A program made the translations under genes and the position numbers. This document shows positions 21,935-27,370 of a stretch of DNA of 64,000 bases, piece after piece. This DNA comes from Formosa sediminum (lineage in GTDB: Bacteria > Bacteroidota > Bacteroidia > Flavobacteriales > Flavobacteriaceae), in contig NZ_CP041637.1 of assembly GCF_007197735.1 (NCBI RefSeq), positions 3,815,001-3,879,000 of the forward strand. The letters are read 5' to 3'. The notes beneath the pieces are model-generated. The model was not told the origin of the DNA and did no database searches. It saw only the letters and a list, made by a program, of their open reading frames with translations. Numbering within the stretch: the stretch's first letter is position 1; the number at the start of each line of letters is the position of its first letter.

Positions 21935-22009
21935 TCGGGGTGGCAGGATTCGAACCTGCGACCTCCGCGTCCCAAACGCGGCGCGATAACCGGGCTACGC
22001 TACACCCCG
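21935..22009 (-). tRNA. tRNA-Pro (anticodon UGG)
   Basis: The 75-base cloverleaf reads CGGGGTG at the 5' end pairing with CACCCCG at the 3' end, with A as discriminator. The D-arm is AGCCCGGTTATCGC. The anticodon stem CCGCG/CGCGG carries the loop TTTGGGA, giving UGG. The T-arm GCAGGTTCGAATCCTGC is perfect. CCA is not encoded. Its 3' end faces the eroded island at 16-22 kb, which is the usual polarity for integration into a tRNA gene. Confidence 0.97.
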
Positions 22010-23242: not shown

Positions 23243-23851
23243 ATGCTAATTATAGGTCTTACAGGTGGAACAGGTTGTGGAAAAACAACCGTAGTAAATC
23301 AAATTTTAAACGAACTTCCAGAAGCTGAAGTTGGTATTATATCTCAGGACTCTTACTATAACGACACCTCTCACCTTTCTTACGACGAACGTAAACGCAT
23401 AAATTTTGATCATCCAAAATCTATCGATTTCGATTTGTTAGTAACACATTTAAAACTATTAAAAGCTGGACAACCTATAGAGCAACCAGTATATTCTTTT
23501 GTGAAACATAACAGAACTGGAGATACCGTTTTAACGCATCCAAGAAAAGTTATGATTGTTGAAGGAATATTAATATTCACTCACCCAGATATTCGCGAGT
23601 TATTCGATATAAAAATATTTGTACATGCAGATAGTGATGAACGTTTAATTAGACGTTTAAAACGAGATATCGCAGAACGTGGTCGCGATTTAGATGAAGT
23701 TTTAAACCGTTACCAAACCACATTAAAACCAATGCATCAGCAATTTATTGAACCCATGAAAGAATATGCTGACATTATTATCCCTAATAATAAATTTAAT
23801 ACTGTTGCTATAGATATCGTGAGAACGATAATAAATGAAAAGCTAATATGA
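23243..23851 (+). CDS. udk: Uridine kinase
   Basis: A 202-residue P-loop kinase of the usual length. Walker A is GGTGCGKTT at residues 8-16. SQDSYYNDTSHLSYDERKRINFDHP near 35-60 is the uridine-kinase substrate region, VIVEGILIF near 100 is the Walker B strand, and RRLKRDIAERGR near 135 is the lid. It phosphorylates uridine and cytidine for pyrimidine salvage. Its stop overlaps the start of the DivIC-like gene by four bases. The order udk, divIC, methylmalonyl-CoA mutase is common in Flavobacteriaceae. Confidence 0.95.
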   Translation: MLIIGLTGGTGCGKTTVVNQILNELPEAEVGIISQDSYYNDTSHLSYDERKRINFDHPKSIDFDLLVTHLKLLKAGQPIEQPVYSFVKHNRTGDTVLTHPRKVMIVEGILIFTHPDIRELFDIKIFVHADSDERLIRRLKRDIAERGRDLDEVLNRYQTTLKPMHQQFIEPMKEYADIIIPNNKFNTVAIDIVRTIINEKLI

Positions 23852-24177
23852 AGTTGAAATTTTTCAATAACAAATATGTAAAACCCTTTAAAAATCCTTT
23901 TGTAATTCCTGGGATTGGCTTTATTGTTTGGATGCTTTTTTTTGATAGTAATTCTTTTCTAATTCATAATGAATTAAATAACGATATCGATAAATTAAAC
24001 GATAAAAAAGAATATTACATTAATGAAATCAATAAAGATCGGAAAGCCTATAAAAAGTTGAACACAGAATATGGATTAGAGAAATTTGCTAGAGAAACGT
24101 ATTATTTAAAGCGTGAAAACGAAGATATTTATATTATTGAGTACGAAGACAGTTTAAATGTAAATTCGCATGAATAA
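23848..24177 (+). CDS. FtsB/DivIC septum formation initiator
   Basis: A 109-residue single-pass membrane protein. A short cytoplasmic N-terminus with FKNPFVIPGIGFIVWMLFF (membrane segment, about residues 20-35) is followed by a coiled coil (ELNNDIDKLNDKKEYYINEI, about 43-70) and the DivIC-type end YGLEKFARETYYLKRENEDIYII. It should join the FtsL/FtsQ complex at the division site. It overlaps udk by four bases at its start and the mutase gene by eight at its end, so it is translationally coupled on both sides. Confidence 0.9.
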   Translation: MKLKFFNNKYVKPFKNPFVIPGIGFIVWMLFFDSNSFLIHNELNNDIDKLNDKKEYYINEINKDRKAYKKLNTEYGLEKFARETYYLKRENEDIYIIEYEDSLNVNSHE

Positions 24178-25546
24178 CACCAATTTGTTTGAAGATTTTA
24201 CTACAGTATCTGCTAAAGCGTGGAAACAAAAAATTCAATACGATTTAAATGGTGCCGATTATAATAAGACTTTAATTTGGCAAACCCCAGAAGATATAAA
24301 TGTTAAGCCATTTTACAATGAAGACGATTTTAAAGAAGATAGCTTCAACTTTAAATCGTCTTTATCTCCATTTAAAATTACCCAAACCATATATGTTAAT
24401 TCTGAAGAAAAGTCTAACACAATAGCTAGTCATGCATTAGACAACCATGCAGATGCTATACTTTTTATTGTACCTACAACTCAATGCGATTTAAATGTTT
24501 TACTTAAAAATATAAACCTTTCTAAAACACCTATATATTTTAATGTACAATTTTGTGATTCTAGTTTTGTCTCAAAATTAAATACCATAGCTCAAGAAAA
24601 AGAGGCCAATTTTTATTTAAATTTTGATATTATTGGACATTTAATAACAGATGGAAATTGGTACAAATCCATGTCTACAGATTTTAAAGTTTTAGAATCT
24701 ATTTTAAAATCTTCTAACCATTTAAAGAGCAACCTAAGTATAAATTTAATTGATTACCAAAATGCAGGCGCTACAATCAAACAACAATTAGCTTACGGTT
24801 TAGCACATGCAAATGAGTATTTAAATCGGTTCTCTAAAGACATAAAAACAGAACTAACATTTAAAGTTGCCATAGGTTCAAACTATTTTTTTGAAATTGC
24901 AAAAATCCGTGCTTTACGTATGTTATGGCACACTTTGGCTTCGGCCTATAATATAAACACCCAATGCCATATTCTAGCAACTCCAACAAAACGTAACAAA
25001 ACAATATACAGTAGTAAAACTAATATATCTAGACTCACTACAGAATACATGAGCGCTATACTTGGCGGGGCAGATAGCATTTGCAATGTCGCACACCATT
25101 CTATTTATAGAAAACAACACAATACTAGCGAACAAAATTCTAGAAATCAATTACATCTTTTAAAACAAAAAAACGTATTAGGTGCTGTTTGCAATCCTTC
25201 AGACGGCTCGTATTACATTGAGAATTTAACGCAACAATTAGCGGAAAAAGCACTCGAATTGTTTAAAGATATTGAAGCTAATGGCGGAATTTTAAAATTA
25301 CTAAAAGAAGGATTAATTCAGAAAAAAATAAAAGAAAGTGCAGATAAAGAACAAGCATTATTTGATTCTGAAACCCAGTTAATAATTGGTGCTAATACCC
25401 ATTCTAACTCTAAAGAAAAAATAAAGGAAAAGCTTGAATTATATCCATTTATAAAACACAATCCTAGAAAAACTCTTATTGAACCTATTATCCCTAAACG
25501 TTTAGCGGAACACATAGAACAAAACAAATTACAATCTGAGAAATAG
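24170..25546 (+). CDS. Methylmalonyl-CoA mutase small (beta) subunit
   Basis: A 458-residue protein of the MutA type, the non-catalytic partner of methylmalonyl-CoA mutase. Visible family segments are SAKAWKQKIQYDLNGADYNKTLIWQTPEDINVKPFY at the N-terminus and YFFEIAKIRALRMLWHTLASAYN near 240-262. CNPSDGSYYIENLTQQLAEKALELF lies near 340. Flavobacterial small subunits of about this length lack the B12 domain, so the absence here is normal. It precedes the split large subunit by 17 bases. Because that partner is degenerate, this subunit may also have lost its original role. Confidence 0.85.
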   Translation: MNNTNLFEDFTTVSAKAWKQKIQYDLNGADYNKTLIWQTPEDINVKPFYNEDDFKEDSFNFKSSLSPFKITQTIYVNSEEKSNTIASHALDNHADAILFIVPTTQCDLNVLLKNINLSKTPIYFNVQFCDSSFVSKLNTIAQEKEANFYLNFDIIGHLITDGNWYKSMSTDFKVLESILKSSNHLKSNLSINLIDYQNAGATIKQQLAYGLAHANEYLNRFSKDIKTELTFKVAIGSNYFFEIAKIRALRMLWHTLASAYNINTQCHILATPTKRNKTIYSSKTNISRLTTEYMSAILGGADSICNVAHHSIYRKQHNTSEQNSRNQLHLLKQKNVLGAVCNPSDGSYYIENLTQQLAEKALELFKDIEANGGILKLLKEGLIQKKIKESADKEQALFDSETQLIIGANTHSNSKEKIKEKLELYPFIKHNPRKTLIEPIIPKRLAEHIEQNKLQSEK

Positions 25547-25563
25547 TACATCAAAATCTTAAC

Positions 25564-26916
25564 ATGAGTAGAAAAAATCTGCAACATATCACATTAATAA
25601 ACACAAAAGAAAAAGTTACACAGACTTTAGATGACGATTTAGTATATACTAGCGACGTTCTAGAAGATGTACAACATTTAGATTTTGCTGCAGGTATACC
25701 TCCGTTTTTACGAGGTATTTCATCAACCATGTATTTAACATCGCCTTGGAAAAATTTAAAATTAGATACTCCAAAAAATTGCGAAGAATATAATCTATTT
25801 CTTAAAACGCAATTTAAAGCTGGGCAGCGTCAATTTCTTTTAGATTTTAAATCATTAATTAACTTAGAGACTTTATCAGACTTTAAAACCATTTTCAAAG
25901 ATATTTCTCTAAACGAATGTGTGTTTTTTATAAAAAATAACAACCAAGCTATACCAACACTTGCTTTTTTAGTAGTATTAGCAGAATCTCAAAGTATAAA
26001 ACCAGACACTTTAAAAGGTGGTTTTTACATTAATGTCACAAAGCACGAGTTGCATACACACACTTTAAACGTAGATGCGTTAATATTTTCTAATTCACTT
26101 TTACCAAATTTCAACAAAATAGAAATTTCAGGACACCATAATAACACAACTGCTCCCGAAATTGAATTGACTTGCATGTTAATTTCTGGATATAATTTTT
26201 TAAAAAAGGGCTTAGATTCCGGAATATTAATAGATAATATTGCTAAACGCATCTCCTTTAACCTTTCTATTGGGTTACATCATTTTACTGAAATAGCTAA
26301 ACTTCGCGCTGCTAGACTGGTATGGAGTAAGCTTGTAAAAACTTTTAATCCCAAACAAGACCATGCATTAGCTTTGCATATAAATACTGTAATACAACCT
26401 AGTAGCTCGCTTAATACTTGCGATACCTTAACGCAAATAACACTTCAAACAACAACTGCAATTTTTGGAGGTGTACAGTCTATATCTCAACCTAAATTAA
26501 CACACGATTCACATAAAAACGTACCATTATATTTGCAAAAAGAAACCCAAATTATAAGAACAATAGATCCTTGGGGAGGCAGTTTTTATGTAGAAAAACA
26601 AACGCATGACATTGCAATTAAAACCTGGAATTTATTTGAAACCTATTTAAAAACGGGGCAATACCCAGATCTTATTCAAGACAGGCAGCCTTTAAGAGAT
26701 ACCAGTAAATCTATATACAAATCTGAAGTCAATGCTCTAAACAATACTTTTACTGCACATGATCAAAAAGCTGTAAAACTTGCGCTTTTAAATTTAAAAA
26801 AACATATTAACGATACTCCCGAAAACATATTAAAACTATGTATTAGTGCTGTTAAAAAACAAGCTACACTAAGTGAGATTCTAAATAACTTAAGTCAACT
26901 TAGTAATGAAAACTAA
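25564..26916 (+). CDS. Degenerate methylmalonyl-CoA mutase large subunit, catalytic-domain part
   Basis: A 450-residue protein that keeps the frame of the large (alpha) subunit: DVQHLDFAAGIPPFLRGISSTMYL at the N-terminus, ISLGLHHFTEIAKLRAARLVW-like sequence near 235-255 and TIDPWGGSFYVEKQT near 340. The active site is gone. The usual PWTIRQYAGF is PWKNLKLDTP, so the catalytic Tyr is missing, and the SGTIQND loop is replaced by KGGFYINV. Only the His of SGYHM persists, as SGHHN. The normal ~700-residue subunit is also cut before the B12 domain, which is the next gene with an overlapping start. Confidence 0.8.
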   Translation: MSRKNLQHITLINTKEKVTQTLDDDLVYTSDVLEDVQHLDFAAGIPPFLRGISSTMYLTSPWKNLKLDTPKNCEEYNLFLKTQFKAGQRQFLLDFKSLINLETLSDFKTIFKDISLNECVFFIKNNNQAIPTLAFLVVLAESQSIKPDTLKGGFYINVTKHELHTHTLNVDALIFSNSLLPNFNKIEISGHHNNTTAPEIELTCMLISGYNFLKKGLDSGILIDNIAKRISFNLSIGLHHFTEIAKLRAARLVWSKLVKTFNPKQDHALALHINTVIQPSSSLNTCDTLTQITLQTTTAIFGGVQSISQPKLTHDSHKNVPLYLQKETQIIRTIDPWGGSFYVEKQTHDIAIKTWNLFETYLKTGQYPDLIQDRQPLRDTSKSIYKSEVNALNNTFTAHDQKAVKLALLNLKKHINDTPENILKLCISAVKKQATLSEILNNLSQLSNEN

Positions 26917-27370
26917 TATAGACGCCATGTTAACAGCAAAAAAACGTTGTAACACATTTGCTCAAATAGAAGGGCGTCGTCCGCGTATTTTACTTACTAA
27001 TATACATCAAGATGCTAGCGATAGGGATGTAAATTTTAAAGCATCAGCGTTAGCTAATACTGGCTTTGACGTCGACCTTTCCCCCACGTCCACATCTGCT
27101 AAAGTCATTTCAAAACAAGCTATTGAAAATGATAACCATGCCATTTACATCATATCTCATACCAACCTAACATTAGACTTACTGATCCAAATTATGGATT
27201 GTCTTGCTATTTATAATCGAAAAGACATTTTGTTAGTAGTAGATAATGATCATAAAACGCATTATAATTTACTTTCTACGTATAAATCATTTTATGCTTT
27301 AGATAGTAAGACAGGATTTTATGATACTATTGTTCAAATCCTCAACATTTTATTACAGAGAACATCCTAA
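26906..27370 (+). CDS. Degenerate B12-binding domain of methylmalonyl-CoA mutase, as a separate gene
   Basis: A 154-residue protein matching the C-terminal cobalamin domain: AQIEGRRPRILLTNIHQD and LANTGFDVDLSP with KQAIENDNHAIYIISH. The cobalt-ligating motif DGHDRG is DASDRD at residues 36-41, so Ser38 stands where the histidine ligand should be. The GVSSLAAGHKT loop and the VGGVIP loop are also replaced. It overlaps the previous gene by 11 bases. The frame is open and the fold pattern is kept, so it may be expressed, but it should not bind cobalamin in the base-off His-on mode. Confidence 0.8.
   Translation: MKTNIDAMLTAKKRCNTFAQIEGRRPRILLTNIHQDASDRDVNFKASALANTGFDVDLSPTSTSAKVISKQAIENDNHAIYIISHTNLTLDLLIQIMDCLAIYNRKDILLVVDNDHKTHYNLLSTYKSFYALDSKTGFYDTIVQILNILLQRTS

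Follow-up and report, generated by a model that had tools for sequence, protein, structure and literature searches.

The window, a 64,000-nucleotide stretch of the Formosa sediminum genome (contig NZ_CP041637.1), carries at positions 23243-27370 five genes, udk, divIC and three that we call A', N' and C', which lie head to tail with only overlaps or short gaps between them (Table 1). Relatives whose enzyme is intact have, in the same neighbourhood, the small subunit MutA (mostly 450-468 aa) and the large subunit MutB (about 690-722 aa) of the native methylmalonyl-CoA mutase, which identifies A', N' and C' as that mutase. A preliminary description of this DNA had read the large subunit as two overlapping genes of 450 and 154 residues beside a small subunit of full length, and both readings hold: the window's open reading frames reproduce the two sizes, both frames are open and overlap by 11 nt, and the 458 aa of A' fall within the native-type range, as against 602-608 aa for the small subunit of a second copy of the enzyme. 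Many native operons also have one or two unrelated small genes between mutA and mutB, which are missing in Formosa. No B12 riboswitch or other known RNA reached the gathering threshold between window positions 22000 and 29000.

Table 1. Genes and motifs of the native mutase locus, in window coordinates.
Feature	Position	Strand	Basis
udk, uridine kinase, at the start of the conserved neighbourhood	23243..23851	+	ORF; Pfam PRK 150 bits
divIC, FtsB/DivIC-type septum protein, overlaps udk and A'	23848..24177	+	Pfam DivIC 27.0 bits, cut-off 28.9
A', well-conserved small subunit (MutA) of the native mutase, 458 aa	24170..25546	+	Pfam MM_CoA_mutase 227.8 bits
N', degenerate TIM barrel for substrate binding, from the large subunit, 450 aa	25564..26916	+	Pfam MM_CoA_mutase 212 bits
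C', stand-alone pseudo-B12 domain, 154 aa	26906..27370	+	NCBIfam C-terminal match; AlphaFold2 model
GRRPR of C' (human R614 and R616, MMAA contacts according to PMC10356863)	26972..26986	+	
DASDRD of C', standing where the DGHDRG B12-ligand motif would be	27011..27028	+	
FDVD edge strand of C', whose counterpart pairs with MeaB switch I (PMC9974510)	27065..27076	+	
END of C', corresponding to D632 and D634, acidic salt-bridge residues of M. extorquens MCM (PMC9974510)	27125..27133	+	

A comparison with sister species had been proposed in the preliminary description, and the split proved to be conserved among them. Four of six Formosa genomes (G000-G003) carry A'-N'-C', one (G004) carries A'-C', and one (G005) has an intact 709-aa MutB and no second MutB. 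A sequencing error was rejected as the source of the split, which is common to four genomes. Within Formosa, A' shares 58-69% identity with the window's copy, N' 42-47% and C' 38-43%. The open frames and the operon order, both described as kept, are indeed kept; the 11-base overlap itself is not, being replaced by gaps of 7-8 nt in G001-G003. A search for related loci returned a single match, Formosa sp. L2A11, at the same place as in G003. In G004, 185 bp separate A' from C' (L064:4226-4410), with no readable remnant of N'.

The same small gene recurs in other genera. Of 298 genomes of the family surveyed, 256 gave a match and 241 showed the frame length (15 were left out), and C' was present in six of the 241 (G000, G148, G161, G029, G279 and G126). 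A C' profile search, each locus being read individually, added 13 C' in four other genera; the survey of congeners left out the genus of G126, and G270 (partly masked) and G319 (contig end) were excluded. The collection comprises 18 stand-alone C' from five genera: five from Formosa, nine from g25, two from g153 and one each from g140 and g118. Short C-type frames in G249, G093, G116 and G342 were rejected as C' because they lie at contig ends and have DGHDRG intact, as was G177, whose frame is split with both motifs intact. A 51-aa fragment with a stop, resembling the end of a B12 domain, lies 3' of an intact MutB in G198 (C1:256263-256415) and is perhaps a partial duplicate.

The loci differ in how much of the enzyme remains. 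G345 has A (455 aa), N' (about 570 aa) and a 156-aa C' reading ASHDHG at the motif, G148 has A (460 aa), N' (533 aa) and C' (157 aa), and G161 has A (463 aa) and C' (156 aa) without N'. Nine g25 species have udk-divIC-C', the stretches read there containing neither A' nor N'. In G126, a 136-aa C' lies near an intact MutAB of native type. A' is kept alongside C' in 8 of the 18 genomes. We read G345, G148, Formosa, G004/G161 and g25 as a series of growing loss and not as one line of descent. On the small-subunit tree, split and intact loci require at least three changes, and a single clade of split loci is rejected (AU p 2.4e-59); we count g25 as a further independent case, as its congeners G329 and G340 have an intact native operon or MutB at the same locus. 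Long branches dominate both the tree of C' with B12 domains and that of N' with barrels, in which all six N' as one group were not rejected, so it is the small-subunit tree, together with the congeners with intact genes, that supports independence.

Both pieces of the large subunit fall far below the NCBIfam equivalog cut-off of 876 bits (N' 221.5, C' 70.0), and together they make 602-628 aa, compared with 709 aa for the intact G005 protein. C' matches only the C-terminal end of the NCBIfam mutase models and has no Pfam match at 0.001, B12-binding appearing only at E 0.0027, below its cut-off. In the large subunit of an active mutase the B12 motif has the form DxHxxG...SxL...GG. None of these three parts is complete in any of the 18 C'; the His of DxHxxG remains in three (G001, G003 and G345), with the rest of the motif gone. 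Alignment confirmed what the preliminary description had seen by eye: DGHDRG reads DASDRD in the window's C', and RQYAGF and the SGTIQND loop are lost in all four Formosa N', along with MVRNT and LRTHCQTSGW (the loop being scored as GTIQND). The catalytic Tyr of RQYAGF is still present in the N' of G148 and G345. In the numbering of the Propionibacterium enzyme, Tyr89, Arg82, Arg87, Arg207 and Arg283 are all lost in the window's N', and the arginines at positions 82, 207 and 283 are gone in all four Formosa N'. The barrel contact of MeaB (human R228) is lost in N' as well.

These losses bear on a role that the preliminary description had floated, CoA-ester binding. A' and N' could be the main product of the locus, a pseudo-mutase heterodimer that binds CoA esters or acts as a sensor, with C' as an accessory; the barrel family does bind CoA esters, and both genes are under purifying selection in Formosa (see below). 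The disappearance of the three arginines disfavors CoA-ester binding, and C' outlasts both genes: G004 and G161 have lost N', and the nine g25 genomes have lost A' as well as N'. We therefore consider an A'-N' product as the main function improbable.

We also determined dN/dS, as the preliminary description had suggested, and every readable comparison of A', N' or C' gave a value below 1. A ratio of 1 was rejected in every one of 31 Formosa pairs (10 C', 6 N' and 15 A'; likelihood ratio at least 36). In the Formosa pairs of lowest dS, dN/dS was 0.13 for C' (dS 2.1), about 0.10 for N' (dS 3.8-3.9) and 0.12 for A' (dS 2.0), and for A' it spanned 0.04-0.12 in the less saturated pairs; most other Formosa pairs were saturated, and their values are bounds, and most distant g25 pairs were saturated as well. 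Five near pairs of g25 C' gave 0.13-0.33, while three of the 28 g25 C' pairs were unusable (dN/dS 1.75, 0.74 and 20, with a likelihood ratio of zero or below). As yardsticks, the second MutB gave 0.02-0.03, the second MutA 0.07-0.09, and udk and divIC 0.001-0.04, so C' evolves much faster than udk, divIC and MutB. The segments of C' at the putative MeaB interface had a dN/dS of 0.017 against 0.326 for the rest, a comparison that is descriptive only, as the segments were picked with the alignment in view; the intact controls (0.02-0.03 outside the segments) likewise had lower values within them.

Open frames are the rule among these genes: N' is open in all four Formosa genomes and C' in all 18 (one C' being cut by a contig end). 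In neutral simulations of 500 runs, 0.1 changes per site were enough to close every copy of a 464-codon N' (fraction open 0.000). For a 156-codon C', the fraction still open fell from 0.232 at 0.1 changes per site to 0.022 at 0.25 and 0.000 at 0.5. The recent decay that the preliminary description had offered as one explanation is opposed by the open frames and by the dN/dS values. Decay would mean that the native mutase became redundant once a second MutAB had arrived and that its frames are open by chance or recency. It fits the lost catalytic and B12 residues, a barrel that is shortened or deleted, the presence of a second MutB in nearly all C' genomes and a dN/dS of about 0.33 in C' outside the conserved strip, far above the intact controls. 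However, the constraint seen in all Formosa pairs, a split that predates the Formosa species, the closure expected of neutral frames and the survival of the same residues in separate lineages all argue against it, and we assign decay little probability. Selection on C' is well supported.

The preliminary description had also imagined a lineage without B12, and a search of the genome for an intact mutase pointed the other way. At C1:1415000-1430000 lie a glyoxalase-family gene (probably the epimerase), a carboxyltransferase, OAD gamma, a biotin carrier, OAD beta, a CoA transferase, MutA (604 aa), an intact MutB (712 aa) and MeaB, and IcmF is encoded at C1:30256-33171. MeaB is the GTPase that loads adenosylcobalamin into mutases. 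Judging by its gene content, the second MutAB operon appears to be a Na+-pumping methylmalonyl-CoA decarboxylase module. This module spans C1:1415269-1426622, with MeaB downstream on the other strand.

The second MutB forms a separate clade and was found in 17 of the 18 genomes with C', the exception being G126. In a quick tree against 26 native sequences, the 17 grouped as one clade with full support (one of the 17 sequences is truncated at a contig end, and others at the limit of the retrieved stretch), and all 17 carry DGHDRG. Seven genomes (G019, G067, G074, G144, G223, G288 and G347) have both mutases intact, so the change does not follow inevitably from having a second mutase. Judged by profile extent only, some genomes appear to have the second MutB alone and no C'.

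MeaB accompanies C' throughout the genomes searched. One strong stand-alone MeaB was present in 44 of 48 genomes; G340 had only fragments, and none was found in G007, G027 and G170, which also lack a C-type match. All 12 C' genomes in this search had one strong stand-alone MeaB, and a MeaB-like ORF of 334-349 aa lies at the second-MutB locus in five of the six further C' genomes, and in G327 too. Among the 12, the distance from MeaB to the second MutB is at most 2 kb in nine, about 3-4 kb in G002 and about 8 kb in G001. G126 has its MeaB beside C', with 3 bp between C' and the end of meaB. The stretch concerned (L148:2095-3921) holds a glyoxalase-family gene (a probable epimerase), meaB and the adjoining C', which is convergent with meaB.

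The placement of C' in G126 also bears on the idea that C' serves its neighbours udk and divIC, in nucleotide salvage or septum formation. C' does lie directly 3' of divIC in the nine g25 genomes, and the neighbourhood is the same in Formosa, g140 and g153. The native mutase was already there in relatives with an intact enzyme, though, the C' of G126 is elsewhere, and no sequence feature suggests such a role, which leaves it highly improbable.

An AlphaFold2 model of the window's C', built from two sequences, showed a full alternating alpha/beta fold (pLDDT 81.3, pTM 0.81), predicted to be the five-stranded Rossmann-type cobalamin-binding fold. Its best PDB matches were 8dpb_C (E 5.4e-11) and 8dpb_D, the MeaB-bound domain, with human and bacterial mutases close behind; because all top matches belong to one family, they speak to the fold of C' and not to its partner. 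The model of N' (pLDDT 39.5) was left unused.

The contacts of this domain with its GTPase have been described in two systems. Human MMUT touches MMAA through R614, R616, D640, D644, Q652, D663 and R694, and R616C lowers activation 7-fold (PMC10356863). The isolated M. extorquens domain touches MeaB through D609, strand 612-616, D632 and D634 (a further salt-bridge residue, E577, had no assignable position); in its apo form it raises MeaB GTPase activity 25-fold and binds MeaB with GMPPCP (PMC9974510). Retention in C' was compared over 87 columns, chosen for a conservation of at least 90% among 35 intact MutB and for occupancy in 14 or more of the C'. Averaged over the five genera, retention was 0.83 in the 11 interface columns and 0.42 in the other 76 (p 8e-5, 50,000 shuffles). 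This test was picked after the conservation of GRRPR had been noticed, but its residue list comes from the papers. Within the 76, the 21 B12-loop columns were kept at 0.17 and the remaining 55 at 0.52. The excess persisted when any one genus was left out and when the contacts were restricted to side chains (p 0.002). Taken singly, four of the five genera showed it; the fifth, g140, is represented by one sequence (p 0.21).

The motifs follow the same pattern. GRRPR is complete in 15 of 18 C' (its last R in all 18), FDVD in 15 and END in 17, the remaining one reading DND. Residues kept in all 18 are F54, G59, P62, R63 (R616), G89, V92, D93, N111 and D112 (D634). Of these, F54, G59, P62, G89 and N111 are absent from the contact lists and may instead reflect the needs of folding. 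The contacts Q652 (5/18), R694 (6/18) and D640 (13/18) are poorly kept.

Since C' keeps the docking strip and has lost the B12 motifs, the simplest mechanism would be that of a B12-free MeaB ligand, and the part of the enzyme that persists longest is the small B12-type domain and not the CoA-binding barrel, which likewise points to MeaB. We propose, with about even confidence, that C' is a B12-free partner of MeaB, either an activator of its GTPase or a decoy; MeaB as the partner is inferred from sequence. In the alternative case, C' would be selected and B12-free but would bind the second MutAB, A' or some other protein, and the conserved strip would be that partner's surface or the minimum needed for folding. 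The selection and fold evidence fit such a partner equally well, some of the best-kept columns are not listed contacts, and A' stays with C' in a number of genomes. Against it, the interface columns exceed the other conserved columns, the C' of G126 adjoins meaB, and A' and N' are both absent at the locus in the nine g25 genomes that keep C', so that neither can be the general partner. We judge a partner other than MeaB to be unlikely, if a serious contender.

A sequence of events consistent with MeaB as the partner can be outlined. With a second MutAB of another clade in 17 of the 18 C' genomes, the native catalytic subunit was dispensable. The native large subunit split, its barrel decaying and often being deleted, and the B12 motif was lost while C' stayed open and under selection, retaining above all, as the column statistics show, the strip that touches MeaB or MMAA in the solved complexes. 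C' might dock on GTP-bound MeaB and extend its beta sheet with switch I, in the way that the M. extorquens domain, isolated and apo, behaves in vitro (PMC9974510). Docking would trigger GTP hydrolysis or occupy MeaB, and C' might thereby adjust or reset how the second MutAB is loaded with B12. Selection also maintains A' and, in four Formosa species, N', perhaps as a pseudo-heterodimer. Of the preliminary description's two explanations, a pseudoenzyme with a new role is thus favored, given the shared frames and split, the dN/dS below 1 and the presence of C' in other genera.

Taken together, these data show that a redundant B12 enzyme broke up in several marine-type bacteria and that a small B12-domain gene survives. 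More tentatively, this may be a recurrent route to natural B12-free regulators, in which the mutase of a Na+-pump operon takes over and the old B12 domain, freed and no longer binding B12, is kept as a constitutive activator or decoy of MeaB. If so, these loci would be a repeated, stepwise record of how a replaced enzyme is dismantled, ending in a tiny one-surface protein, and a dead client domain would control the cofactor loading of its successor enzyme. If C' binds MeaB, it would also be a natural B12-free tool with which to tell apart two roles of the mutase B12 domain, GTPase activation and cofactor carriage; human MMAA/MMUT disease variants pose the same question. Family-model annotation calls C'-type genes broken mutases or nothing at all, and in the open-licence literature we found no report of a B12 domain that occurs naturally and repeatedly as a separate gene and lacks the B12 motifs.

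The direct ancestor of the locus, by place, order and sequence, is MutB/MMUT (NF006944, TIGR00641, TIGR00640; 1REQ, 2XIJ, 8GJU), with the small subunit kept. Compared with it, the large subunit is split into N' and C', is 81-107 aa shorter, and has lost the catalytic, CoA-arginine and B12 motifs. A separate B12-domain gene of similar size to C' is known from 2-hydroxyisobutyryl-CoA mutase (4R3U) and Aeropyrum (2YXB), which appear in the structure comparison as B12-type mutase subunits. These two presumably carry the B12 motif, whereas C' has lost it. MutA of the heterodimeric mutases, which have one inactive subunit (PMC9974510), is a natural inactive paralogue kept as a partner and so a precedent for mutase-derived pseudoenzymes, but it goes back to the barrel side, with MutB as its partner, whereas C' comes from the B12-domain side. 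IcmF shows a contact between B12 domain and G domain of the same style as MeaB docking (PMC9974510), although it is an active fusion of a mutase with its own G domain and has no GRRPR-type split as in C'. The closest likeness is the isolated B12 domain of M. extorquens in complex with MeaB (8DPB; PMC9974510), which has the same fold (TM 0.82-0.88) and size and is, like C', stand-alone and apo with the same docking strip; that domain, however, is a piece engineered out of an active B12 enzyme, whereas C' is a natural gene without B12 motifs whose binding to MeaB is predicted. The parts are thus of known kinds, and C' would be a mutase-derived pseudoenzyme with a proposed role as a chaperone partner.
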